This document shows, piece by piece, positions 985 through 33,844 of a DNA stretch of 37,347 nt. The notes under the pieces are model-generated. The model was given only the letters and a program-made list of their open reading frames with translations. It searched no databases and was not told the DNA's origin. The DNA comes from Clostridia bacterium (lineage in GTDB: Bacteria > Bacillota > Clostridia > Oscillospirales > CAG-272). Positions within the stretch are counted from its first letter, which is position 1. Each line of letters starts with the position of its first letter. The DNA lies in contig JAFXJH010000118.1 of assembly GCA_017532425.1 (NCBI GenBank), forward strand, positions 1 through 37,347, given 5' to 3'. A program made the position numbers and the translations under genes.

Positions 985-2415
985 TCAGCCAAGCGTGATC
1001 TCGATAGCCGCAACCGCCGCGGGAGGAAGAATTACCGAGCTTCCTTCGATCTTCTTTTCCTGCACTGCAAAGCAGTTTGTGTTCACAAGAGTTATCTCGG
1101 TTTCGGGCTTTGCCGCGATGTAATACATAGTCGCGTCTGCGATAGAAGCGCCGCCGAGGTCGAGATCGAGAGTCTGTGCGGAGTTCATATCGGTGTTGGC
1201 AATATGGATAAAGATCTTGTTATCTGTCTTCGAAGCAACAGCGTCAACAGAGCCGTTATACGAAATATCTACCGCCTGCTTGCCCTGATGATGTCCGAAA
1301 AGGCTCATTACAGCGCCTACCGGCTGGAGATAGGGTTCACCGATCGTGATAGGTGTAGGTATCATAACTGCGTTTACCTGCCATACGTTGCCGAAAAAGT
1401 CTGCCATTGTGGCGATGTCGATAATATCGCTGTTACGCATAATTACGTTAAGACATCTTGCGTAAGAAACGCCTGCCGCCCAAGATGAGAGGACCTCGTT
1501 TCTGTTTCTTCCGGGAAGGGCATAGTGTCCTTCTGTCATCGCAAGACGCTTTGTGCCGCAGCTTGCGCGCATTTGTGCGATATGACCCTCAAGCGACTTG
1601 TAAGCGTTCATCATATGATCCCAGGTCTTCTGGAAATCATATCTGTACTGGGTTCCTGTAAGAGGAGAATCGGGAAGTCCCGAATTGAAGTGGTGATGGA
1701 AAGCGATAAGGTCGATTCCGTCAACCTCACTCATCTTTTTGCACCAGGAATCGTCGTCCTTGCTCTTATCGCCCCAACCGATAAGGGTTATGGACGGGTC
1801 TGCCGCGCGCATCGTTTTTATGAAACGCTTCGTTACCTCGATACATTTGTCACTTCCGTATCCGCGCTTATCATAAGAGGTTTCGTTGCCTATCTGCCAA
1901 TATTTTACGTTGAAGGGTGCCTCTGCACCGTTTGCAATACGGAGCGCATTATTCGGATTGTTGCAGTAATCGACCCATTCAGCGGCTTCCTCAGCCGTAC
2001 CGAAGCGGTCTGTGCCGTTTTTCGGATGTGCCCAGTGCATACGTCCGTCAGATTCCATATTGACAACGAGAAGGGGCTCTGCGTTTACCTTGCGGCAGAA
2101 ATCAACGATCTCGTGTGTGCCTACCTGGTTCGGGTATATACCGCTCCAGCAGTAGTTCATCATAGGAGTTCTGTCGGCAAATTTACCGATAGCCTCCTTC
2201 CAGTGATAATATGATGCGAAGCATCCGCCGAAGCGTACCATAGTGGGCGCGAGCTCGCGTACCTTGTCTATAACCTTGGGATACCATTCTTCCTCGATAA
2301 AGTCCCAAGCGGCGTCGACCGACGAGTCGCAGACTCCGAGAGGCTCCATAAACTGCATATAAAGATAAGGGGAAATAGTATGCTTTTCCGATGTGCTTAT
2401 TTTCAAATTGATCAT
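985..2415 (-). CDS. GH51-type alpha-L-arabinofuranosidase
   Basis: A 476-residue clan GH-A glycoside hydrolase, about the usual GH51 length. The N-terminus reads ISPYLYMQFMEPLG, like the GH51 'I...yGhF.EhlG' opening, and VRFGGCFASYYHW fits the R-(F/Y)-P-G-G strand. The acid/base Glu is E178 in WQIGNET and the nucleophile is probably E295 in LAMTEGHY. The last about 100 residues form the small beta-rich domain. There is no signal peptide, so it acts in the cytoplasm on imported arabino-oligosaccharides (inference). The start ATG has a GAAAGG site about 14 bases upstream. It is divergent from an AraC-type regulator with facing promoters. The nucleophile context (TEGHY rather than the usual DEWN) makes it an outlying GH51 member, so the exact substrate is not secure. 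Confidence 0.8.
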   Translation of the reverse strand: MINLKISTSEKHTISPYLYMQFMEPLGVCDSSVDAAWDFIEEEWYPKVIDKVRELAPTMVRFGGCFASYYHWKEAIGKFADRTPMMNYCWSGIYPNQVGTHEIVDFCRKVNAEPLLVVNMESDGRMHWAHPKNGTDRFGTAEEAAEWVDYCNNPNNALRIANGAEAPFNVKYWQIGNETSYDKRGYGSDKCIEVTKRFIKTMRAADPSITLIGWGDKSKDDDSWCKKMSEVDGIDLIAFHHHFNSGLPDSPLTGTQYRYDFQKTWDHMMNAYKSLEGHIAQMRASCGTKRLAMTEGHYALPGRNRNEVLSSWAAGVSYARCLNVIMRNSDIIDIATMADFFGNVWQVNAVMIPTPITIGEPYLQPVGAVMSLFGHHQGKQAVDISYNGSVDAVASKTDNKIFIHIANTDMNSAQTLDLDLGGASIADATMYYIAAKPETEITLVNTNCFAVQEKKIEGSSVILPPAAVAAIEITLG

Positions 2416-2450
2416 AATAATGCAAACAACCTTTCATAGTTTATATTTTT

Positions 2451-2478
2451 ATTATAATGTAGGAATATGAAAAATCAA
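2451..2478 (-). promoter_or_regulatory. sigma-A promoter of the GH51 gene
   Basis: On the minus strand, -35 TTGATT (2473-2478), a 16-base spacer, and -10 TATAAT (2451-2456). It gives a leader of about 30 nt before the ATG at 2415. Confidence 0.75.
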
Positions 2479-2488
2479 GTAATATGAC

Positions 2489-2512
2489 GGACAAATTTTG
2501 ATTTTAATGTCC
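2489..2512. promoter_or_regulatory. candidate operator between divergent promoters
   Basis: GGACA and TGTCC form an inverted repeat with 14 bases between. A direct repeat, TGATTTTA, occurs at 2499-2506 and 2513-2520. Both lie in the about 60 bp separating the two -35 boxes, where an AraC-family protein could control the GH51 gene. The assignment is inference from position and symmetry. Confidence 0.4.
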
Positions 2513-2540
2513 TGATTTTACAGTTTTTGAGAGGCGTCTA

Positions 2541-2569
2541 TTGATTTTCCTTGCTTTTTGTGCTAAACT
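2541..2569 (+). promoter_or_regulatory. promoter of the AraC-family gene
   Basis: -35 TTGATT (2541-2546), 17-base spacer, -10 TAAACT (2564-2569). The predicted first transcribed base falls on or next to the ATG at 2576, so the messenger may be leaderless. Confidence 0.6.
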
Positions 2570-2575
2570 TCAGAT

Positions 2576-3442
2576 ATGGGAAATCAAATAAAAAACAAAC
2601 CGACCTTTTCGATAGACGTTTTCGGAATAGATCTGAAGGTCTTCAGAGTCGGAAAAAATCAAAATCCGCGAATAAACTCGATCAAAGATCAGGTTGCGAT
2701 GCGCGGAGTACATTCACATTTCACGTACGAAATATTTTTTGTGACCGAGGGCACTCTTGACATTGTCACCGAGCGAAGCAGAACGACCTGCGAAAGGAAG
2801 GTCGTCATAATTCCGCCTAAGATAAAGCACTATACGACTCCGAGTATAGAGGGAAGCTTTTGTCTTCTTTTCTCCTTTGAGGGTCAAGCCTCCGACGCTC
2901 TGCGGGATGCTTTAGAGCTTTCCTGCTCCAAGGAAGGCGTATGCGAGCTGCCTCTTTCGGATGACGTGGCATTTTATATACGCAAGGTTTCGGAAAAATG
3001 CGAGGAAAACACTCTTGCCGCCGAAAAAGATGCAGAGCTCCTTGCCTCTCTCATATTTCACGAGATCGTACGGGCTCTGCTTCCGGATATCTGTGCCGAT
3101 AAGACTGAAAAAAGTGACTCCAAGCATATTGGCTTGATCGAAGAGTTCATCAACTCAAATCTCGGCGGAAAAATAAGACTGACCGACGTTGCCGGGCACG
3201 TTTTTCTCAGTACACGTCAGGTGTCGCGCATTATTTTAAAGGAATACGGTTGCACTCTCTCCGAGCTTGTAACCGAAAAAAGGCTCGCCCGCGCCGAAAT
3301 GCTTATAAAGAACACCGATATGAAGATCGGTGAGATCGCCGCACAATCAAATCTCGGATCTGAAAATTATTTCTATCTCCTCTTTAAAAAGCATTACGGT
3401 ATGTCACCTCTCAAATTCCGCCAAGAAAACCGAAATACATAG
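2576..3442 (+). CDS. AraC-family transcriptional regulator
   Basis: A 288-residue regulator. Residues about 40-100 form a cupin-type sensing domain (HSHFTYEIFFVTEGTLDI, then VVIIPPKIKHYTTP). Residues about 188-285 form the double helix-turn-helix of the AraC/XylS family, with LTDVAGHVFLSTRQVSRIIL as the first recognition unit, IGEIAAQSNLGSENYFYLLF as the second, and the closing FKKHYGMSPLKFR signature. The start at 2576 keeps the full N-terminal domain, but no Shine-Dalgarno precedes it, which fits a leaderless transcript from the promoter 7 bases upstream. It probably senses a pentose or oligosaccharide and controls the divergent GH51 gene (inference from arrangement). Confidence 0.88.
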   Translation: MGNQIKNKPTFSIDVFGIDLKVFRVGKNQNPRINSIKDQVAMRGVHSHFTYEIFFVTEGTLDIVTERSRTTCERKVVIIPPKIKHYTTPSIEGSFCLLFSFEGQASDALRDALELSCSKEGVCELPLSDDVAFYIRKVSEKCEENTLAAEKDAELLASLIFHEIVRALLPDICADKTEKSDSKHIGLIEEFINSNLGGKIRLTDVAGHVFLSTRQVSRIILKEYGCTLSELVTEKRLARAEMLIKNTDMKIGEIAAQSNLGSENYFYLLFKKHYGMSPLKFRQENRNT

Positions 3443-3535
3443 CCCAAGGGCTCTGCCCTTGGATCCCGGTTAAGAAACTTTTTGAAAAAAGTTTCTTAAC
3501 GATCTTCAAAAACTTTACTGAAAAGGGAAAGTAAT
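3443..3535 (-). repeat. composite double-hairpin repeat, copy A
   Basis: It contains hairpin 1 (CCAAGGGC-tct-GCCCTTGG, 3444-3462), hairpin 2 (TTAAGAAACTTTT and its complement, 3470-3499), then CAAAAACTTTACTGAA (3507-3522). The same module in reverse orientation follows the GNAT gene at 14408-14487. It begins one base after the AraC stop codon, so hairpin 1 may also act as that gene's terminator, although no T-run follows it. Confidence 0.7.
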
Positions 3536-4040
3536 AGGGCTCTCCCTCCGGGCAGCAAAGCGGCGACGCGGTAGTGAATGATATGCCTGTGGCATATTAG
3601 AGCCGCGGCGTGACCGAGCCGTAGCGAGACAGCTCCTGCGAAGCAGGTGAGAGGGGATTATCTTGCCTCAAAAACTTTACTGAAAAGAGAAAAACTAAAT
3701 CCGAAGGGCGTATTCTTACAAGCCTTCCTCAATGGGTAAAACACAATGCAATCGTTGTGTGCCCGCGAAGCGGGGAAAATGAGGTGGACCTCGTCCAACG
3801 TACTTTGGGAGGCGACCTGCCTCTGATGCTTTTGCATAGTACGAACACAGCAAAAACGCGTTTATAAGTCTTTTTTGTTCATTTCTGTATTGACAGAAAC
3901 GAACCAAAGAACAATATAAGGAAGGGACGAATCCCTTCCTTATATATCCAACCCTCTTTTTTGCAAAACCTCCCAACAGGGATGGTCGGTTTTGCTCGCG
4001 CCGCACAACGCGGCGGTCTGTATCGTTAGCTTAATGCGTT
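3536..4040. repeat. gene-free intergenic region packed with repeats
   Basis: No credible gene is seen. Visible are a CTCCCTCC-type REP fragment (3541-3655) with inner hairpins ATATGCC-tgt-GGCATAT (about 3579-3596) and CCTGC-gaa-GCAGG, a second copy of the CAAAAACTTTACTGAA tail (3667-3683), and a 33-base block at 3841-3873 that recurs at 25201-25233. A 96-codon minus-strand frame (3716-4006) is judged to be repeat DNA. Confidence 0.6.
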
Positions 4041-4127: not shown

Positions 4128-4964
4128 TTATATCTCAAACCACGTGTCGGGCGACTTGAGAGCGCTTATACACACCTCGCGTATAGCCATAACGGCAAGC
4201 GTCTGATCGTGAGGAACGAGGATATCGCCCGTTTTGTAGAATTTTATAAGATTTTTTATAAAATTGCCGAAGAAATCCGACTTCACGTCGATTACTCTGT
4301 GAGCACCGTTTGCGTAATTCAGAGTCATACGGAAGGGATGATCACCCGTTGAGCATACCATAGTCGTGCGCTCGCCGTTTGCGTATTCGAGCGCAAAAAT
4401 GGGGAATTTTTCGCTTCCGAAATTACAAATCCGCTTGATGTCTGTACCGAGAAGCATAACGAGGGGCTCGATCTGATGGATCATATATATTTCGGGAACA
4501 CCGCCACTCATACTGACCGCACTTACAAGACCGTTTCTGTCGATATTCTGATATTCATCGGCATAGCGGAGTGCTGACGAGGTTATGACGGGAGTGCCAC
4601 TCTCTTCTGCGATTGCGAGGATACGCTTTGCGCTTTCGCGGTCGGGAGCAAAGGTTTTGTCAACGTAGGTTATCTTTTTGGAGCGGAGCGCTTTGGCACA
4701 AAGACGCTCGTGAGTTTCGGGATTGTCGGGAGCAAGTACGCAAAGAACGTCACTCTTTTCGATAAGCTCGTCTTCGCTTTCGCAGAGCGTGATGCCGTAT
4801 TTTTCAGACCACTGCTTACTTGTCAGACCGCCGTGCGGAGAGTCGATCTCAGCGTAGCAGTATGATACCTCGATCTCACCGTTTGACGCTTTTTTTATCA
4901 TTTCGGGATAATTGTTTGCGTGCCATTCGTCGAGATAATAATCAATAAATCCTATTTTTATCAT
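4128..4964 (-). CDS. short Gfo/Idh/MocA-like oxidoreductase
   Basis: A 278-residue protein related to the Gfo/Idh/MocA NAD(P)-dependent sugar oxidoreductases but clearly shorter than the usual about 330-390. The second Rossmann half is recognisable: SDVLCVLAPDNPETHERLCAKAL corresponds to 'D.v.i.tPn..H.....aL', and YVDKTFAPD stands where the family has 'EKP', keeping the lysine. The N-terminus KIGFIDYYLDEWHANNYPEM lacks the G-x-G-x-x-G dinucleotide loop, and most of the C-terminal beta-sheet domain is reduced. A strong AAGGAG site precedes the ATG. It is divergent from a full-length family member at 5159. It could be a divergent enzyme or a non-catalytic partner; the substrate is unknown. Confidence 0.72.
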   Translation of the reverse strand: MIKIGFIDYYLDEWHANNYPEMIKKASNGEIEVSYCYAEIDSPHGGLTSKQWSEKYGITLCESEDELIEKSDVLCVLAPDNPETHERLCAKALRSKKITYVDKTFAPDRESAKRILAIAEESGTPVITSSALRYADEYQNIDRNGLVSAVSMSGGVPEIYMIHQIEPLVMLLGTDIKRICNFGSEKFPIFALEYANGERTTMVCSTGDHPFRMTLNYANGAHRVIDVKSDFFGNFIKNLIKFYKTGDILVPHDQTLAVMAIREVCISALKSPDTWFEI

Positions 4965-5009
4965 ATCAGATTTCTCCTTGTGTGAAATTTCTTCCTCGTT
5001 TACATCTAT

Positions 5010-5038
5010 TTTATATCACATTATTGTGAAAGTGTCAA
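5010..5038 (-). promoter_or_regulatory. promoter with embedded operator-like palindrome
   Basis: On the minus strand, -35 TTGACA (5033-5038), 17-base spacer, -10 TATAAA (5010-5015). The spacer contains TCACA-N4-TGTGA (5016-5029), an inverted repeat placed where a bound repressor would block RNA polymerase. The repressor is not identified in the window. Confidence 0.75.
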
Positions 5039-5088
5039 TTACAAAAAGAAAAAATGACTCGCCAAGGTGAAAAAATTTCAAAAAAATA

Positions 5089-5117
5089 TTGATATCCCGA
5101 TAAAAAAGAGCTATAAT
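5089..5117 (+). promoter_or_regulatory. promoter of the 5159 oxidoreductase
   Basis: -35 TTGATA (5089-5094), 17-base spacer, -10 TATAAT (5112-5117). A small inverted repeat, TGAAA-AAA-TTTCA, lies just upstream at 5068-5080 and could be an operator (weak). Confidence 0.8.
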
Positions 5118-5158
5118 GAAATTACGAATAAAATATCGACCGAAAGGAAGAAAAAGCT

Positions 5159-6217
5159 ATGGAAAAAATAAACGTTGCCGTTATAGGCTGCGGAACTATC
5201 GCAAACAGTGCGCATATTCCCTCCTATATGAATAACGAGAAGGTTAATATCAAATATTTCTGCGATATTATTCCCGAAAGAGCAGAGGCTGCCGTTAATA
5301 AATACGGTTGCGGAAAGGCTATCGTAGATTATAAGGAGATCCTTGACGACGAGGAGCTTGACGCTGTATCGGTATGCACACCAAACTATGCACACGCAGA
5401 AATATCGAACGCTTTTCTTAAGGCGGGCAAGACCGTTCTTTGCGAAAAGCCTGCCGCACGTACCTATACCGAGGCTCTCACTATGCAGAAGACGCAGCAG
5501 GAGACAGGAAACGCGCTCAGTATCGGTGTTGTAAACCGCTTCAACGACGGCGTAAATCAGATCAAAAAGCTGATAGACGCAGGTGAGCTTGGCGAGATAT
5601 ATCAGGTTTACGTAAGCTTCCGAGCACATCGCTCGATCCCCGGACTCGGCGGAGCCTTTACAACAAAGGCGATCGCAGGCGGCGGAGTTCTTATCGACTG
5701 GGGCGTACATTTCCTTGATATCGTAATGTACTGCTGCTCCGATCCCGAGCCGAAGACCGTTTCGGCAGAATGCTTCTCAAAGCTCGGAACAAATATCGAA
5801 GAATACGTTTATACAAATATGTGGGCAGGACCTCCCATCAAGGACGGTACTTATGATGTGGAAGAATATATCAGCGGAATAGTACGTACAAGCGGTCCGG
5901 TCATCACACTCAACGGTGCGTGGGCACAGAATATCGGTGAAAGAGAAATGTATATCGACTTCATCGGAACGAAGGCGGGAATACGTCTTCAGTACGGAAG
6001 CGGCTTCAAGGTATACGGCGTAAAGGACGGTGCTCTTACGACAACTCCTTACGACGCGCCCACAACGAACCATTTCCAGAACGAAATAAACGCATTCGTT
6101 GACAGCGTTATAAACAAGACACGCCTTCCTTCGAATATAGACATCAATATCACGACCTCCAAGCTTATGCAGGCTCTTTACGATTCTGCCGAAAGCCATA
6201 AGGAGATCACTCTGTAA
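5159..6217 (+). CDS. Gfo/Idh/MocA family oxidoreductase
   Basis: A 352-residue, full-length NAD(P)-dependent sugar or cyclitol dehydrogenase. The N-terminal Rossmann domain opens with VAVIGCGTIANSAHIP (G10-x-G12). SVCTPNYAHAEISNAFLKAG is followed by CEKP (95-98), whose lysine is the conserved catalytic or cofactor-contacting residue of the family. The C-terminal domain carries GGGVLIDWGVHFLDI with D180 and H184 at the catalytic D-x-x-x-H positions. The start has a GAAAGGAAG site 9-17 bases upstream. It is transcribed away from the shorter paralogue at 4128-4964 from its own promoter, and the two probably serve one sugar-derivative pathway (inference). The exact substrate cannot be read from sequence. 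Confidence 0.9.
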   Translation: MEKINVAVIGCGTIANSAHIPSYMNNEKVNIKYFCDIIPERAEAAVNKYGCGKAIVDYKEILDDEELDAVSVCTPNYAHAEISNAFLKAGKTVLCEKPAARTYTEALTMQKTQQETGNALSIGVVNRFNDGVNQIKKLIDAGELGEIYQVYVSFRAHRSIPGLGGAFTTKAIAGGGVLIDWGVHFLDIVMYCCSDPEPKTVSAECFSKLGTNIEEYVYTNMWAGPPIKDGTYDVEEYISGIVRTSGPVITLNGAWAQNIGEREMYIDFIGTKAGIRLQYGSGFKVYGVKDGALTTTPYDAPTTNHFQNEINAFVDSVINKTRLPSNIDINITTSKLMQALYDSAESHKEITL

Positions 6218-6249
6218 AATTCAGATAATAGAAAATCATCCGTTACCTT

Positions 6250-6279
6250 GGCGTGATACTCTTATCGGAGTATCACGCC
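6250..6279 (+). terminator. 12-bp hairpin after the oxidoreductase gene
   Basis: GGCGTGATACTC (6250-6261) pairs perfectly with 6268-6279 around a 6-base loop, 32 bases after the stop. No U-tract follows, and its GTGATAC core resembles the neighbouring AGTGATATT repeats, so it may be part of that repeat cluster rather than a true terminator. Confidence 0.5.
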
Positions 6280-6281
6280 GG

Positions 6282-6470
6282 TTCTATTCGCCTGTGGCGA
6301 GTGATATTGCTATGCAGTGATATTCGGCTCGCGCCGAGTGGTATTCGCGGCTCACGCAGTGAGCATCGCGAGCTTTCAGGGCGAATAGAATACCACTGAA
6401 GCCGCAAGGTTTCAATATCACTATTGCGGTAGCAATAATATCACTCTTTGCGAAAGCAAAGAATATCACT
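6282..6470. repeat. AGTGATATT/AATATCACT hairpin repeat cluster
   Basis: The 9-mer AGTGATATT (or AGTGGTATT) occurs at 6300, 6316 and 6337. Its complement AATATCACT (or AATACCACT) occurs at 6389, 6414, 6437 and 6462. Between units are short variable hairpins: CGGC-tcgc-GCCG, GCTCAC-gca-GTGAGC, ATTGC-ggta-GCAAT and CTTTGC-gaaa-GCAAAG. TTCTATTCGCC at 6282-6292 is exactly complementary to 6380-6390. The cluster can fold as one large branched structure in either strand. It is not coding. Confidence 0.75.
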
Positions 6471-6483
6471 AAAAAAGCAGAAA

Positions 6484-6538
6484 AAGAGAGAGCTTCACGG
6501 GATTTTGTAACCGCGTTACTCTCTCTTATGTTTTTATT
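6484..6538. terminator. bidirectional terminator-like stem-loop
   Basis: AAGAGAGAG (6484-6492) pairs with CTCTCTCTT (6519-6527), with an inner CGG/CCG pairing. T-rich runs lie on both sides (TTTTTATT downstream; on the minus strand TTTTTCTGCTTTTTT). It separates the converging genes 5159-6217 and 6706-7659. Confidence 0.6.
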
Positions 6539-6590
6539 GCAAGTTTCGCATTGGTTTAACAAATGCGCAGGGCTATGCCCATACCCCTTA
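6539..6590 (-). repeat. GGGGTATGGG hairpin repeat, copy 2
   Basis: Read on the minus strand it gives GGGGTATGGG (6578-6587), GCCC, a hairpin (CGCATTTG paired with CAATGCG), then AAACTTGC. This is the same architecture as 217-275 with compensating changes in the stem. The remaining 6591-6705 holds no visible feature. Confidence 0.6.
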
Positions 6591-6705
6591 TAAAATCTCT
6601 CCGATAAGGACATCACCCATTTCGGTTTCGGATGATTTTTGCTTTTATAAGAGTTTTTAAGTGAGATCTTATGCGAAGCCTCAAAAGGATCTTCTGAACT
6701 TGAAA

Positions 6706-7659
6706 TCAGTAATTTTCAAGCAGCGACTTGTAGAACTCCGAATAATCCTTGCGGTCCTTCGTCGTAAACTCGATCGCCTCGCGGGGGTGACGGTTAAGAA
6801 ACCCGGTGAACATATACTGAAGATCGTAGCCCCAGACTACGCCGTTTTCCCTGAGGGTGTGCATATACTTCTCGATGAACTTGAGAAGGTGATAGAGATT
6901 GTATTTCGGATTCTTGAGGAAGCCGAGGAGAAGCTCCATAGCACAGTTGCCCGCGCCGCGTCCCATACCCTGAACTGTGGCGTCAAGGTAGGAAACACCG
7001 TAGGACATCGTTTCAATAGTGTTTGCAAATGCGAGATTCAGGTTGTTGTGAGCGTGGAATCCGATCTTTTTGCCGCATTTTTCAGAAGCTTCGATGTATT
7101 CCTTTGCAAGCTCGCAAGCGTTTTCGGGGTAGAGAGAGCCGTAGCTGTCTACGAGATAGATAACGTCAACGCTTGTCTGCGCGAGCATCTCAAGCGCCTG
7201 CTCTATCTGATCGTTGTTTGCCTGCGAGATCGCCATAATGTTGCAGGTCGTTTCGTATCCGAGCTTGTGAAAATGCTCGATCATATCGATGGCCGCGGGA
7301 ATCTGATGAATATAGCACGCAACGCGTACCATATCGATAACGCTTTCGCTCTTGGGAAGAAAGTCGGTCTTGTAGTCGCACCTTCCGACGTCTGCCATAA
7401 CGGATATCTTCATATCAGAGGGGTTGTCTCCGACAATAGCGCGGATATCCTCTTCATTACAGAACTTCCATTTTCCGAATTCGCTCTCATCAAACATAGC
7501 CTTACTTGCGCGATAACCAAACTCCATATAATCTATTCCGCTCTTGACGTTAGTCTTGTAGAGCTCCTTGACAAATTCGTCGGTGAATTCAAAATTGTTG
7601 CAGAGACCTCCGTCTCTTATTGTGGCATCGAGAAGCTTTATATCATCTCTGACGCTCAT
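6706..7659 (-). CDS. HMGL-like (DRE-TIM) aldolase/metallolyase
   Basis: A 317-residue TIM-barrel protein of the HMG-CoA lyase / 4-hydroxy-2-oxovalerate aldolase superfamily, which cleaves or forms C-C bonds using a divalent metal. The signature LLDATIRDGG gives the metal Asp (D11) and catalytic Arg (R15). GFHAHNNLNLAFANT supplies the metal ligands H202 and H204, and GMGRGAGNCAMELLL is the C-terminal glycine-rich loop typical of the aldolase branch. The ATG at 7659 is chosen because AAGGAAAGG lies about 7 bases upstream; in-frame ATGs further 5' lack a site and sit in the promoter leader. The gene stands alone behind a strong promoter. I cannot decide between a 4-hydroxy-2-oxoacid aldolase and another substrate. 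Confidence 0.85.
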   Translation of the reverse strand: MSVRDDIKLLDATIRDGGLCNNFEFTDEFVKELYKTNVKSGIDYMEFGYRASKAMFDESEFGKWKFCNEEDIRAIVGDNPSDMKISVMADVGRCDYKTDFLPKSESVIDMVRVACYIHQIPAAIDMIEHFHKLGYETTCNIMAISQANNDQIEQALEMLAQTSVDVIYLVDSYGSLYPENACELAKEYIEASEKCGKKIGFHAHNNLNLAFANTIETMSYGVSYLDATVQGMGRGAGNCAMELLLGFLKNPKYNLYHLLKFIEKYMHTLRENGVVWGYDLQYMFTGFLNRHPREAIEFTTKDRKDYSEFYKSLLENY

Positions 7660-25060: not shown

Positions 25061-25065
25061 AAAAC

Positions 25066-25102
25066 AAAAAAGATACGGATCTGAAAGATCCGTATCTTTT
25101 TT
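25066..25102 (+). terminator. terminator of the UDG gene
   Basis: A perfect 16-bp stem (25066-25081 with 25087-25102), 5-base loop TGAAA, with A-runs and T-runs on both sides, so it may work in both directions. Confidence 0.92.
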
Positions 25103-25149
25103 GCTTCGCGAAAAGGGGAACTCAGCCCTTTGGGTGAAGTTTAATTTTA

Positions 25150-25238: not shown

Positions 25239-25970
25239 TTATTTAGAAAGGCGGTTCTCAAGTGCGGAGAGACCGCGCTCGTATGCGAGAAAGAGGCTCG
25301 AGCTTGGGTCTATCTCAAATGGGTCGCCGGTTATCATTTCGCATATTTTGGCAAGAACGCTCGGATTTTTCACGGCGAACGGACCGATAAGCTGTGTGCC
25401 GATGAAATTGCCCGAGATAATTCCGTCAGAGGCAGAGACCTTGTCGTTTCCAAGCTTGTCGCCGAGGATGCAGTTTAGCATGGGAGTGTCGATACCGCTG
25501 TAGATTGCGGAGGTGTTGATGAATCCGATGAGCTTTTCACCAAAAATATTGCTGTCGTCGGTCAGAACGTCGCCTGCAAAACGCTTGTCGGTGAATATCT
25601 CGGAGACGTAGGAAAACGCACCGAGAGCATCGTAGGTGCTGTCTTTAAGCTTCAGCACACTTCCGAAAAGAGCCATCGCATTTCCTGTGGCAAGCAGACA
25701 CTTTCCCGATGAAATGTACTCGCAAAGAGCATCCTTGATAGGTAAAAGCCTTCTTACGGCTTCGATAAGATTCTTTTCTGTGCCCGAGCCGACGTAGATA
25801 AAATCGAAGTTTGAAAGCTCGATAGTCTCGCCGCTGAGAGTCTCAAGCTCGGTTACGCTTGCGCTGTATCCGCGGCAGGAGAGCTGTTTTTCTATGATCT
25901 TTACATTTCCGTATTCTCCGTAAAGCGAGAGAAGTTTCGGAAAAAGATGAAGTAATTTGATTTCTTTCAT
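25239..25970 (-). CDS. gatD: GatD-like class I glutamine amidotransferase, catalytic Cys and His lost
   Basis: A 243-residue homologue of GatD, the glutaminase subunit of the MurT-GatD complex that amidates D-Glu of lipid II. The fold aligns end to end: LLSLYGEYGNVKIIEKQL, FDFIYVGSGTEKN, RFAGDV, and GNFIGTQLIGPFAVKNP. However, the nucleophile elbow (normally I-C-G-G-Y-Q-x-L-G) reads ATGNAMALFG, putting Gly96 where the catalytic Cys should be. The catalytic His of G-T-Y-L-H-G-P is Ile195. The E-N-H-G-G substrate loop is INTSA. No frameshift or stop is present, so the protein is kept but should not hydrolyse glutamine by the known mechanism. It lies 27 bases downstream of the murT homologue. 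A structural pseudoenzyme, or a different ligand, is inferred. Confidence 0.85.
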   Translation of the reverse strand: MKEIKLLHLFPKLLSLYGEYGNVKIIEKQLSCRGYSASVTELETLSGETIELSNFDFIYVGSGTEKNLIEAVRRLLPIKDALCEYISSGKCLLATGNAMALFGSVLKLKDSTYDALGAFSYVSEIFTDKRFAGDVLTDDSNIFGEKLIGFINTSAIYSGIDTPMLNCILGDKLGNDKVSASDGIISGNFIGTQLIGPFAVKNPSVLAKICEMITGDPFEIDPSSSLFLAYERGLSALENRLSK

Positions 25971-25997
25971 ATCTTTAGTACCTTAAATAGATTTATG

Positions 25998-27335
25998 TTA
26001 TATTTGATCGTTTAATATTTCGACGCGGCTGAAAAGCTTGTCCTTGTCGGAGAAGCAGGTAATGGCGTAGAGTTTGCCGTCGCTCGGAGCGGCTATTTCC
26101 TTCGCCATTTCGTCGAGGTCGGGAATTACCTTGATCTTTGAGGGATCGATCTTTGTCATCTCAAAACGAGTGGCAAGGTCGTAGGCGTAGTTTCCGCAGA
26201 GAAGGATCTTTTCGGCAGTTGAATTTTCAAGCTTTTCAAAGCTGATATCCCAAAGCCAGCTCGTTTCGGAGGTGTAGTATTTTCTGCTTATGGCGTCAAC
26301 GATTATCGCAAGCGTGAATTTTTCCTTGGAGGCACAGACGTACTCAAGACTCTGATTGTAGGAGGTCGAGTTTTCGTGCTTGGAGGTAATGAGCATACCC
26401 TCGTTTTCGCCTGCCTTGAAGCGGACGACTCTGCCGTTTTTCATAATAAAGGAGCTGAGCGAGGAGGCTATCTTTTCGTGAGGAATTCCGACGATGCTGC
26501 ATACGGCAAATGCTGTGCAAAGATTGTAAACGTTGTAACGGCTTGCAAATGCAAGATCGATGCTCTCTCCGCAGATCGAGATGCGCTTGCTTTCAAGATC
26601 GGCGCTGTCTACAAGGTACTTGGGCTCGGCGGAGGCATATCCGCAGGACTCACAAGAGAATTTTCCGAGGTGCGCGTAGTGGAAATATTCGTAGGCAAGA
26701 GAATTTCCGCACACAGGGCAATATGTGCAGTCGTTGTAGAGAGCGTCTGTCTCGCTCGTGCAGTAGGCGTTTTTCGCCATTGCGAAGTAGCAGACCTTGT
26801 CACGCTTGTGACCGAGCATAGAAACGATAGGATCGTCGGCGTTGAGAAGAAGCTCGGCATTCGGGATAAGATCGACGGCTTCCTTTATGATGTCGTATAT
26901 CCAGAAGGGATGAACGTTTCGCGTAAGCTGATCTCTGTATAGATTGGTTACGGCAAAATGCGTGGGCTTTATGTGTCTGAACGTATGGCGCGCATAACGC
27001 TCGTCGCTTTCAAGGACGACGACGTCGCCGCAAACTCTGCCGCGAAGGTCGGAGTTTTTGAGAAGAAGGGTGGTTACGCCCTCGATCTGGTTGCTGCCCT
27101 CTTTGTTCCAGACCACCTTGAGACCGTTTTCGCTCATAACGTTTGCGATCATTTCGACGGTAGACGTTTTTCCGTTCGATCCGGTGACGGCGATCACGTA
27201 TTTCGGAAGGGATATTTTTTGCAGGATGTTCGGGCAAAGCTTAAGGACGATCTTGCCGGGAAGGCTTGACCCTTTGTTTACAAGCTTTCCGACAAAAGCA
27301 AGGAGCTTGCAGAGTAAGATCATTAAAAATTTCAT
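25998..27335 (-). CDS. murT: MurT-like Mur-ligase-family protein with altered amidation site
   Basis: A 445-residue MurT homologue. MurT activates the D-Glu carboxylate of lipid II with ATP and amidates it with ammonia from GatD. The ATP loop VTGSNGKTST is intact, and the zinc ribbon typical of MurT is present (CPVC at 206-209, CESC at 228-231). The C-terminal DUF1727 motif, normally N-D-N-x-A-D-G-R-D-x-S-W-I-x-D, reads VDAISRKYYTSETSWLWD, so the Asp that completes the GatD catalytic triad is missing. 'RDQLDRYGE' is changed to RDQLTRNVH. A hydrophobic N-terminus (FLMILLCKLLAFVG) may touch the membrane. The start ATG at 27335 is supported by GAGGT 8 bases upstream. It is co-transcribed with gatD from a good promoter. 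Confidence 0.87.
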   Translation of the reverse strand: MKFLMILLCKLLAFVGKLVNKGSSLPGKIVLKLCPNILQKISLPKYVIAVTGSNGKTSTVEMIANVMSENGLKVVWNKEGSNQIEGVTTLLLKNSDLRGRVCGDVVVLESDERYARHTFRHIKPTHFAVTNLYRDQLTRNVHPFWIYDIIKEAVDLIPNAELLLNADDPIVSMLGHKRDKVCYFAMAKNAYCTSETDALYNDCTYCPVCGNSLAYEYFHYAHLGKFSCESCGYASAEPKYLVDSADLESKRISICGESIDLAFASRYNVYNLCTAFAVCSIVGIPHEKIASSLSSFIMKNGRVVRFKAGENEGMLITSKHENSTSYNQSLEYVCASKEKFTLAIIVDAISRKYYTSETSWLWDISFEKLENSTAEKILLCGNYAYDLATRFEMTKIDPSKIKVIPDLDEMAKEIAAPSDGKLYAITCFSDKDKLFSRVEILNDQI

Positions 27336-31268: not shown

Positions 31269-31736
31269 ATGGATAAAAGACTGAACGATATTTTGTGCGG
31301 TAAAGAAGCCAACTATCTTTTGCCGTTTTATTGGCAGCACGGCGATCATACGCAGCTGATCCCCGAGCAGATACAAAGGATCTACGACAGCGGCTGCAGG
31401 GCCTTCTGCGTAGAGGCGCGTCCGCATCCCGACTTTTTGGGCGAGGGATGGTGGCGCGATATGGATATCATTTTCGAGGAAGCGCAGAAGCGTGATATGA
31501 AGGTCTGGCTTCTCGACGACGATCATTTCCCGACGGGCCACGCGGCGGGAATGATAAAGAAAAAATATCCCGAGCTCCGTCAGTGGGAGCTTATAGAGCG
31601 TCACGTGGACGTTGTCGGATGCGCTCCCGACACTTCGATACTTGTGAGCCCTGATAATGCCGAAAATATACTTATAGGCGCATACGCCTACAAAGACGCG
31701 CGGATAACTTCGAAAGCTGTATTGCTGACAGCGTAG
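31269..31736 (+). CDS. GH106-like glycoside hydrolase, N-terminal fragment (frameshifted)
   Basis: The first 155 codons of a protein split by a frameshift. The N-terminal barrel reads WQHGDHTQLIPEQIQRIYDS, CRAFCVEARPHPDFLGEGWW and VWLLDDDHFPTGHAAG, as in large gut-bacterial hydrolases related to GH106 alpha-L-rhamnosidases. After the Asp and Ala around 31695-31700, the frame runs out into an unrelated tail (TSKAVLLTA) and stops. The missing continuation (…DNFESCIADSVVELTDK) is in the -1 frame from about 31703. A one-base deletion in the GCGCGG run is the simplest cause. The start is 58 bases after the CE7 gene. Confidence 0.75.
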   Translation: MDKRLNDILCGKEANYLLPFYWQHGDHTQLIPEQIQRIYDSGCRAFCVEARPHPDFLGEGWWRDMDIIFEEAQKRDMKVWLLDDDHFPTGHAAGMIKKKYPELRQWELIERHVDVVGCAPDTSILVSPDNAENILIGAYAYKDARITSKAVLLTA

Positions 31737-33844
31737 TGGAGCTCACCGACAAAATACACGGGAATTACCTCACTTGGGATATTCCAGAGGGCGTATGGCG
31801 AGTATTTTTCTACTACAAGTCGCGCAAAGGCGGCAGACCAGAATATATCGATATGATAAATCCCGAATCGGTCAGAGTGCTTATAGATGCGGTATACGAG
31901 GGACATTTTGAGCACTACGCTAAGTATTTCGGCAATACCTTTATGGGATTTTTCTCGGACGAGCCTGAGTTTGGAAATCAGGTCTTCGGTAAAGAAAGAT
32001 TTGATTTCGGGTTTTACGAGGCGAGAATAGGCAAGCACTCTCTTGCGCTCCCGTGGAATGAGAACGTGCTTAAAAAAATGAAGGAAAAGCTCTCCTTTGA
32101 CCCGGTTCCTTATCTGAATCTGCTCTGGTACGAGGACGGCGAAAACGGCGACCGCCAGGCAGAAATACGCCACGCGTATATGGATACGGTGACCGAGCTT
32201 TACAGCCTCTGCTTCAATAAGCAGATAGCCGATTGGTGTCACGCTCACGGAGTACAGTATATCGGTCATATTATTGAGGATATGAACTGCCATATGAGAG
32301 GCGGTGTCGCTCACTATTTCAGAGCGCTTCGCTGGCAGGATATGAGCGGAATAGATATCGTTCTTCATCAGGTAATGCCGGGTATGGCAGATTATCTGCA
32401 TACCGTGACCTGCGCAACGGGCGTGGGTGCAGGCTCGTTTTACGAGTATATCCTTGCAAAGCTGGGCGCGTCCCTTGCTCACCTCACTCCCGAGATGAAG
32501 GGAAGAGCAATGTGCGAGGTCTTCGGTGCATACGGCTGGGGCGAGGACTCGGCTATGATGAAATTCCTTATGGACCATCTGCTTGTCAGAGGAATAAATC
32601 ATTTCGTGCCTCACGCATTCAGCTCGAAATTCCCCGACCCCGACTGTCCGCCGCATATGGGCGCGGAGGGTCACGACCCGAGCTTCGAGGCGTTTACTTC
32701 TCTTATGAAATATACGAACAAGGCGGCGCATATTCTTGCAGATACCACACACAAGGCCAACGCGGCGATACTTTATCACGTGGACGGCGAGTGGGCAAGC
32801 AGATACGGCAACGCTTCGAATATGGAACCCGTGGCTACAAGACTGTATGATGATCATATAGACTACGATATCGTGCCTATGGATATAATAATCGAATCGG
32901 CAGGCGTAAAGGATAATAAGCTTTGCATAGCTGATGAAAGCTTTGACTGCCTTATCGTGCCGTATGCAGACCATATGCCATCTAAAGAGCTTGAAATGCT
33001 TAAAAAGCTTCAGAACTCAGGACTTCCCGTTTGGTTTACAAGAGAAATGCCCGAAAACGCAGACTTTGAAGGTACGGTAGTCGATGAAAACGAGGTCGCT
33101 TCAAAAATGAAGGCACTCGGAATGACAGACGTTACAGTTCCCGAAGGATATCCGAAGCTCAGAATATATCACTGCACGCGCGACGGAAACGATATATTTA
33201 TGTTTGCAAACGAGGATTATAATAAGATCGTCGATACGGAGGTCATTCTCCCGTGCAAGGGCGACTACGCGCGTCTTGATATTCTTAACGATACCTGCAC
33301 GTCGGGAAGCACAAGTGACGGCAGACTTTATCTGAAGCTTATGCCGAATCAGTCGCAGATAATTGTTTTCGGCGACAAGGCGGGACTCCCCGACGAGATA
33401 AAGATCACAGAAAGCGTGATGATATCTCCGAAATTCAGCCTTGAGCTTGCAGAGTGCGAAGATCTTGCAGATTATAAGGCACGCGGCGAGTTTGACAGCT
33501 TCTTTAACGTAAACGATCCGAAGTTCGAGCCCGAATTCTCGGGTAAGATGAGATACACCTTCACATTTGATACGAAAAAGGACGCAGGAAAGATATTCCT
33601 CGACCTCGGACGCGTCGGACAAAACGCAGAGCTGTATATAAATAACGTAAGCTGCGGAATACGCATATGCGCTCCTTATATGTTTGATATCACGGACGCA
33701 GCCGTAGAGGGACAAAATGAGGCTACGGTGATCGTGTCAAACACTCTTGCGCAGAAGGTTAAAGACGGATTTTCATATTTCCTGCAGCTTGCACCGTCAG
33801 GTCTGCTTGGCGATATCTATCTAAGATACGCTGAAAATAATTAA
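31736..33844 (+). CDS. GH106-like glycoside hydrolase, C-terminal fragment (frameshifted)
   Basis: The remaining about 702 codons of the split gene; homologous sequence really begins about 31703, before the nominal GTG at 31736, which lacks a Shine-Dalgarno. Catalytic-domain motifs are GFFSDEPEFGN (residues 71-81), with an acidic pair, and YIGHIIEDMN with H178 and E181, typical of the GH106-like barrel. The last about 120 residues (SGKMRYTFTF, GQNAELYINNVSCGI, then VSNTLA) form a jelly-roll sugar-binding domain. The intact protein would be about 850-860 residues. It probably releases a terminal sugar such as rhamnose from plant pectin-type chains; the substrate is inferred from family only. 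Motifs and frame are otherwise intact, so the break may be recent or a sequencing error. Confidence 0.72.
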   Translation: MELTDKIHGNYLTWDIPEGVWRVFFYYKSRKGGRPEYIDMINPESVRVLIDAVYEGHFEHYAKYFGNTFMGFFSDEPEFGNQVFGKERFDFGFYEARIGKHSLALPWNENVLKKMKEKLSFDPVPYLNLLWYEDGENGDRQAEIRHAYMDTVTELYSLCFNKQIADWCHAHGVQYIGHIIEDMNCHMRGGVAHYFRALRWQDMSGIDIVLHQVMPGMADYLHTVTCATGVGAGSFYEYILAKLGASLAHLTPEMKGRAMCEVFGAYGWGEDSAMMKFLMDHLLVRGINHFVPHAFSSKFPDPDCPPHMGAEGHDPSFEAFTSLMKYTNKAAHILADTTHKANAAILYHVDGEWASRYGNASNMEPVATRLYDDHIDYDIVPMDIIIESAGVKDNKLCIADESFDCLIVPYADHMPSKELEMLKKLQNSGLPVWFTREMPENADFEGTVVDENEVASKMKALGMTDVTVPEGYPKLRIYHCTRDGNDIFMFANEDYNKIVDTEVILPCKGDYARLDILNDTCTSGSTSDGRLYLKLMPNQSQIIVFGDKAGLPDEIKITESVMISPKFSLELAECEDLADYKARGEFDSFFNVNDPKFEPEFSGKMRYTFTFDTKKDAGKIFLDLGRVGQNAELYINNVSCGIRICAPYMFDITDAAVEGQNEATVIVSNTLAQKVKDGFSYFLQLAPSGLLGDIYLRYAENN

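Follow-up and report, generated by a model that had tools for sequence, protein, structure and literature searches.

The stretch of DNA analysed here (called the window throughout) comprises positions 1 to 37,347 of contig JAFXJH010000118.1 from a Clostridia bacterium of the order Oscillospirales (GenBank assembly GCA_017532425.1). On its minus strand it carries a murT-like gene and, 27 bp downstream, a gatD-like gene (Table 1), whose products resemble the MurT-GatD complex that amidates the peptidoglycan precursor. The original prediction had described them as a MurT-GatD pair that lost its glutaminase catalytic residues and was kept as a repurposed, co-evolved complex. Here, we report that the catalytic Cys and His are replaced in the window GatD, that the catalytic residues of the ligase MurT are kept, and that this type of pair recurs across the order.

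Both Pfam domains of MurT were recovered in the window protein (MurT_C with 79.7 bits at a cut-off of 25, Mur_ligase_M with 40.8 bits at a cut-off of 24), and its best solved relative by sequence was S. aureus MurT (E 5e-54). The window GatD gave no Pfam match at E 0.001. With the NCBIfam GatD models it reached 57.7 bits (cut-off 450) and 53.6 bits (cut-off 400), a shortfall that is not diagnostic. Its AlphaFold2 model (pLDDT 95.9) matched 6gs2_A in Foldseek with an E value of 2.9e-21 and a TM score of 0.85. The model of the window MurT reached a pLDDT of 89.1, with residues 352-356 of the SRKY loop below 50, and its next fold match after MurT was pMurC (PDB 6vr7). By sequence and predicted fold, the closest solved relatives of the two proteins are MurT and GatD themselves.

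Table 1. Features of the murT-gatD-like locus in the window. Residue numbers are given in brackets; types V and W are introduced in the text.
Feature	Position	Strand	Remark
murT-like gene, type V (KHENS/SRKY/CFSD signature)	25998..27335	-	445 aa from ATG, open frame
MurT P-loop TGSNGKT (51-57), kept	27165..27185	-	alignments
MurT loop RDQLTRNVHPFW (134-145)	26901..26936	-	Asp135, Arg139 kept; Glu replaced by His142
MurT zinc ribbon Cys206-Cys231, kept	26643..26720	-	alignments
MurT KHENS (319-323), K-N-P loop with two inserted residues	26367..26381	-	absent from 39/39 canonical rows
MurT DAISRKYYTSE (347-357) in place of DNxADGRD	26265..26297	-	Glu357 at Asp349 place
MurT CFSD (427-430), new conserved motif	26046..26057	-	C, F and D each in 111/111, S in 110/111
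gatD-like gene, glutaminase-dead	25239..25970	-	243 aa, open frame
GatD nucleophile elbow TGNAMA (95-100), with Gly96 in place of Cys	25671..25688	-	Gly in 107/108 type V, 11/11 type W
GatD Arg130, place of glutamine-capturing Arg128	25581..25583	-	kept in 107/108 type V
GatD INTSA (151-155) at E-N-H loop	25506..25520	-	alignments
GatD Ile195 at catalytic His place (S. aureus His189)	25386..25388	-	alignments
Terminator-like hairpin, strong	25062..25106	.	between gatD and convergent gene ending at 25060

Residue equivalences were taken from alignments to solved GatD and MurT and from a family alignment. Pairs resembling that of the window were assigned to type V, defined by the MurT motif KHENS. 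A scan of GTDB genomes for NGKTSTVE and [YW]N[KA]EGSNQ gave at least 227 confirmed loci, of which 80 were named. The residues of these patterns and of KHENS are conserved in part through this selection of rows; a profile search of 245 genomes described below is independent of them. The type V rows, 111 for MurT and 108 for GatD, were not deduplicated, and the 111 MurT rows amount to 105 below 99.5% identity and 92 below 90%. The signature common to all of them is therefore not the decay of one assembly, an outcome that would have spoken against the original prediction.

At the place of S. aureus Cys94 the type V GatD rows have Gly, except for one of 108 with Ser, and at the place of His189 they have Thr or Ile in 106 of 108 rows, Ser and Leu in one row each, and His in none. 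Since the Cys place holds Gly or Ser in 108/108 rows and the His place holds His in 0/108, these losses are not due to chance. No replacement nucleophile emerged at position 91, the alternative that had been suggested, which is Cys in only 8/108 type V rows. Tyr17 is kept in 107/108 rows, the remaining row having a gap, as is Arg130; the corresponding Arg128 of S. aureus GatD captures glutamine, and exchanging it for Ala abolishes activity with glutamine (PMC5871853). As judged from the alignments, the pair no longer has the residues needed to hydrolyse glutamine and keeps the putatively amino-acid-capturing Arg and the gate acids. Replacement of the Cys, the His, the E-N-H loop and the MurT motif, each of which had been predicted, was thus borne out by the solved and family proteins, whereas the claim that all parts of the active site are gone together went too far: an acid at Glu357, Arg130 and Tyr17 are still in place.

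The MurT residues expected of an active ligase are present in the window protein, namely the P-loop Lys, the Mg2+-binding Glu109, the pair Asp111-Glu112, Asn82, Asp135, Arg139, Arg302 and the zinc cysteines. Asn82 lies at the place of S. pneumoniae MurT Asn85, whose Ala mutant is dead, and in canonical MurT the Asn and the Asp-Glu pair hold the acceptor carboxylate and Mg2+ (PMC6085368). Retention of the ATP loop, the zinc ribbon, both reading frames and the operon order, also part of the original prediction, agrees with these alignments and with the open frames. The gate acids Asp202, Glu/Asp357 and Asp363 (for gate roles and interface see PMC6085368) are present in 111/111 type V rows, and the place of the interface Trp is aromatic in all of them (98 Trp, 11 Tyr, 2 Phe), from which it appears likely that the MurT-GatD heterodimer is kept.

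The K-N-P loop and the DNxADGRD motif of canonical MurT are both missing from the window protein, which has KHENS and DAISRKYYTSE instead. The place of S. aureus Asp349, the third member of the GatD catalytic triad (PMC6113224), is acidic in 111/111 type V rows (Glu in 75, Asp in 36). Position 142 of the active-site loop is His in 111/111 type V rows and in 11/11 rows of type W, a second glutaminase-dead group, and Glu in 39/39 canonical rows. Besides His142, the residues S350, R351, Y353, T355, C427 and D430 are invariant in the 111 rows, and the definition of type V made use of none of them.

Among the window genome and 38 relatives (39 genomes searched), six had a MurT_C match, five of them including the window with altered motifs and one (G032) canonical. 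A profile search (E 1e-20) of 245 genomes of the order found MurT in 58, exactly one copy each, and all 58 matches are free of internal stops. Glutaminase-dead types were assigned to 44 of these carriers and canonical MurT motifs to 14. The 44 comprise 26 type V read by sequence, nine W, four X-like and three Y, together with G232 and the truncated G172, which were assigned to type V by score alone. GatD, read in 41 of the 44, lacked both Cys and His throughout; that of G066 lies off the contig. Both residues were present in 12 of the 14 canonical genomes, GatD being cut short or not found in the other two. Across the phylum, 105 of 299 genomes searched had a match, and only the window genome and G036, both of this order, scored like type V. 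Type V is the sole MurT of Oscillibacter ruminantium and Massiliimalia, and members of the families f10, f14, f23 and f26 carry either a type V or a canonical pair, one per genome. A type V pair together with a canonical pair was found in no genome searched; the window genome, in which a second, canonical pair had been proposed as a check, yielded one MurT only and is 85% complete. The record titles of many carriers point to the gut or rumen as the sampled site.

Seven of the eight genomes of named loci have one MurT, and the eighth (L053) has two, a type W and a type V pair in tandem (1554-3628 and 4897-6978), 1.3 kb apart with an opposite-strand gene between them and both glutaminase-dead. 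Type W was further seen in L134-L140, L142, L149 and L176 (in L053, MurT at 1554-2936) and in the pairs of G259 and G254; its MurT motifs are RDSxxRNxHxE, AKGxN and LDDxxDxxxSEN-W, which are present in Sporobacter termitidis MurT. The MurT relatives of type Y (L153, L154, L155) have an altered P-loop (e.g. TGSVGKSS), lack the RDQ loop and stand next to a dead GatD; here the ligase itself may be changed. In L179, GatD has only the change of Cys to Gly, with the His and MurT canonical, which is either a natural counterpart of the S. aureus GatD C94G mutant or a sequence error.

The changes in the two subunits are coupled. Out of 170 MurT rows, 166 have a GatD, and the MurT partners of all 38 GatD proteins with the Cys carry KN and have Asp at the position of Asp349; the 128 without it (108 type V, 20 others) stand beside a remodelled MurT in all but one case, L179. 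In a MurT tree of 82 sequences, including 31 of the 111 type V rows and 32 of the 40 canonical-type rows (L179 counted as canonical), canonical and dead types were split at one branch (bootstrap 100, SH-aLRT 99), and V and W each fell on one side of one branch with the same supports, while the X rows did not form one group. The phylogenetic check suggested along with the prediction thus placed degenerate MurT of type V in one group. A GatD tree of 80 rows, 30 of them canonical-type, built with a quick method, gave the canonical/dead split with SH-aLRT 98; type V requires two changes on it and is not shown as one group. The catalytic Cys is ancestral in class I amidotransferases. If this holds here, a single glutaminase loss would suffice for the dead types, and L179 would represent a second, separate loss.

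Evolutionary rates were compared between the subunits using non-independent pairs that share branches. Where MurT identity lay between 50 and 55%, GatD identity had a median of 36.9% for type V (1602 pairs) versus 63.2% for canonical pairs (27 pairs), and 36.8 versus 63.2 with near-copies removed. The median dN/dS of 88 close type V pairs was 0.087 for MurT and 0.208 for GatD, and both genes are therefore under purifying selection; in 19 canonical pairs GatD and MurT values were of similar size. Among the MurT columns, 42 were shared (at 90%), 13 swapped (at least 90% uniform in each type; nine in the C-terminal domain, two being the inserted columns), 28 V-only (95%, below 60% in canonical rows; a count inflated by canonical rows drawn phylum-wide and type V rows mainly from one order) and 4 lost (from 90% to below 70%). 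The GatD columns comprised 20 shared, 4 swapped, 0 gained and 19 lost. Constraint has shifted from GatD to MurT: GatD was not free to vanish, but its pocket is no longer constrained in the same way. Together with the MurT tree group and the kept interface, the coupled changes and the purifying selection support the idea of a repurposed, co-evolved complex.

The good promoter that had been claimed is not evidence, as the promoter-like site at 27416-27388 is one of four such sites in the stretch and shuffled sequences lead one to expect 3.9 (sd 2.1). In the 80 loci, no neighbour apart from gatD and the antisense shadows of both genes recurred more than 18 times; the most frequent one (18/80) reads as an MnmG-like protein by sequence. 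Elsewhere in the window, at 31269-33844 on the plus strand, adjoining open reading frames of 155 and 702 aa in different frames resemble one split enzyme, a possible assembly frameshift.

The third residue of the stem peptide was approached through MurE, whose DNPR motif we take to mark the diaminopimelate type. The best-scoring MurE copy of 17 type V genomes (the L053 genome and second MurE-like copies of some genomes being left out of this count) has DNPR in 8, DNSR in 4, DNPA in 2 and EDPR in 3. DNSR is found in the window genome, its congener, Ruminococcus bromii and G083 (L113, L114, L117 and L119, with G000 and G003 among the genomes), and also in the canonical-type G187 (L118). DNPA occurs in the type V genomes G179 and G129 (L110, L111). 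Because the type V signature is the same in DNPR genomes and in the two DNPA genomes, it is independent of the third stem residue. Cross-links of type B peptidoglycan use the D-Glu alpha-carboxyl; as the product of the pair, type B peptidoglycan was rejected, the MurE motifs giving no indication of a non-diamino third residue. DNPA fits the lysine-type consensus cited in PMC6113224.

Our leading, though still tentative, reading of these data is that the window pair is a glutamine-independent ligase, which would transfer a ready-made amine, likely organic rather than ammonia, onto the D-Glu alpha-carboxyl of the peptidoglycan precursor; the original prediction had listed an enzyme for a different amine among its options. 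MurT would use ATP and Mg2+ to form an acyl-phosphate of the D-Glu carboxyl, as proposed for its canonical relatives, and the amine would arrive whole from solution. Its binding site would be formed by the C-terminal domain as remodelled here (KHENS, S350-R351-Y353-T355 and CFSD) and by the His142 loop. GatD, no longer catalytic, would remain as a partner required by MurT and may still bind a ligand through Arg130, Tyr17 and Glu65. The acceptor, the amine, the role of GatD and the persistence of the complex are what we infer from the conserved residues. In Mur ligases, the C-terminal domain binds the incoming amino acid, and according to the alignments this domain switched in step with glutaminase loss, differently in V and W, while the simple loss in L179 left MurT unchanged. 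The distinct C-terminal signatures of the dead types V, W, X and Y and the V/W tandem of L053 would fit different amines better than one shared amine. A bolder extension, which we regard as rather doubtful, is that the dead pairs are a family of peptidoglycan-decorating ligases in Clostridia-related gut bacteria in which, after one loss, V, W, X and Y each gained a C-terminal site for its own organic amine, be it an amino acid or a polyamine, and that they are the missing genes for non-amide substituents of the D-Glu alpha-carboxyl.

The strong rival, which the original prediction did not list, is that MurT makes D-isoglutamine from free ammonia with GatD as a purely structural subunit; we consider it a real possibility, if a lesser one than an organic amine, and GatD would be a pseudo-glutaminase under both. 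Ammonia is plentiful in the gut and rumen, where many carriers were sampled, and carbamoyl phosphate synthetase I offers a parallel for a structural glutaminase-like subunit. At pH 8.5, S. aureus MurT paired with GatD C94G, the same change as in the window, uses ammonia to amidate lipid II (PMC3266927), amidation with ammonia still required GatD (PMC6085368), and the constraint on GatD is relaxed. Simple loss, however, would look like L179, with the His and the MurT motifs canonical; instead, 13 MurT columns are switched and two residues inserted, with changes that differ between V and W, and two dead pairs in the L053 genome would be redundant. Several points nevertheless weigh against an organic-amine ligase. 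Because C94G still works with ammonia, the missing Cys does not by itself call for a new amine; few new conserved residues appeared in GatD, and the V-only MurT columns are inflated in number as stated above. In all Mur ligases the active-site loop contains a Mg2+-binding His that is missing from MurT (PMC6085368). His142 lies six residues past the column of this Mur-ligase His, which we place at Gln136 of the window MurT, so that the likeness of His142 to it is only suggestive. In a profile alignment of MurT with MurD, CFSD falls opposite the MurD CAS loop and KHENS is unaligned, so a MurD-like amino-acid site was considered and not established. A positively charged gate was ruled out, as the three gate acids are kept and the gate remains negative.

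Other explanations appear less probable. A ligase for another acceptor, i.e. the carboxyl of another cell-wall or cofactor molecule instead of lipid II D-Glu, is unlikely: the V-only middle-domain columns E79, Q83 and S110 do adjoin acceptor- and Mg2+-holding residues, and beyond gatD no neighbouring gene recurs in more than 18 of 80 loci, but the Asn82 and the Asp-Glu pair that hold acceptor and Mg2+ in canonical MurT (PMC6085368) are invariant, V and canonical pairs alternate within four families as for a within-pathway change, and MurE and MurD were present in 23/23 and 13/13 of the genomes looked at. That the pair regulates a true MurT-GatD, as had also been proposed, or senses glutamine on its behalf, draws on the retained Arg130 and Tyr17 and is very improbable, given a single MurT in the 85% complete window genome, in all 58 carriers of the order and in seven of eight named-locus genomes (the eighth having only dead V and W pairs), and given that the ligase residues of MurT are kept. 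Even less credence is due to a glutaminase with a relocated active site: GatD position 154 is Cys in 76/108 and position 193 His in 83/108 type V rows, but the window has Ser154 and Gln193, and every other column has Cys in at most half of the 108 rows. Decaying pseudogenes, finally, would account for the lost catalytic residues and the faster GatD, yet are practically negligible as an explanation in view of open MurT frames across the order, dN/dS well below 1 for both genes and invariant new motifs. The regulator thus found no support, the co-evolved complex did, and a different amine is the reading that we tentatively retain.

The pair described here is a variant of a known enzyme kind. Like canonical MurT-GatD of S. 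aureus, S. pneumoniae and S. pyogenes (PDB 6gs2, 6fqb, 9sq9), it has both folds and the gene order, the ATP, Mg2+ and acceptor residues, the zinc ribbon, the interface aromatic, the acidic gate and equivalents of Arg128 and Tyr17. It differs in lacking the glutaminase Cys and His, in having KHENS with an insertion for KNP, DAISRKY for DNxADGR, His for Glu in the loop and the new CFSD, and in a GatD that is less conserved than MurT. The laboratory mutant C94G (PMC3266927) shares the change of Cys to Gly, and the ammonia-dependent in vitro activity is that of the mutant; unlike it, the window change is natural, the His is gone as well and MurT is remodelled. Archaeal MurT-like proteins without GatD (PMC11915815) and pMurC (PDB 6vr7) are ligases related to MurT that function in the absence of a glutaminase subunit, but in the pseudomurein pathway. 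In Negativicutes, polyamines are an organic amine on the carboxyl that MurT amidates (PMC10628300), a likeness of chemistry only. Among the literature matches listed, which cover few subscription journals, no title or abstract opening describes a glutaminase-dead MurT-GatD.

Most of the MurT-bearing genomes sampled in the order (44/58) carry a pair of a glutaminase-dead type, while public names can imply glutamine hydrolysis; P0259, a MurT with type W motifs, is publicly named 'lipid II isoglutaminyl synthase (glutamine-hydrolysing)'. In the excerpts used here, a review of 2024 (PMC11382707) assigns a peptidoglycan type neither to Ruminococcus nor to Oscillibacter. The dead pairs offer a natural test of the transition from glutaminase to pseudoenzyme and are concrete candidates for the enzymes behind substitution of the D-Glu alpha-carboxyl. 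They are a widespread and conserved version in gut bacteria related to Ruminococcus and Oscillibacter, and if the use of a ready-made amine is true, wall chemistry inferred from gene names would be wrong for them. Should the product not be D-isoglutamine, the wall chemistry predicted for Oscillospiraceae and Ruminococcaceae would need revision, and with it the part that NOD1 and NOD2 would see.

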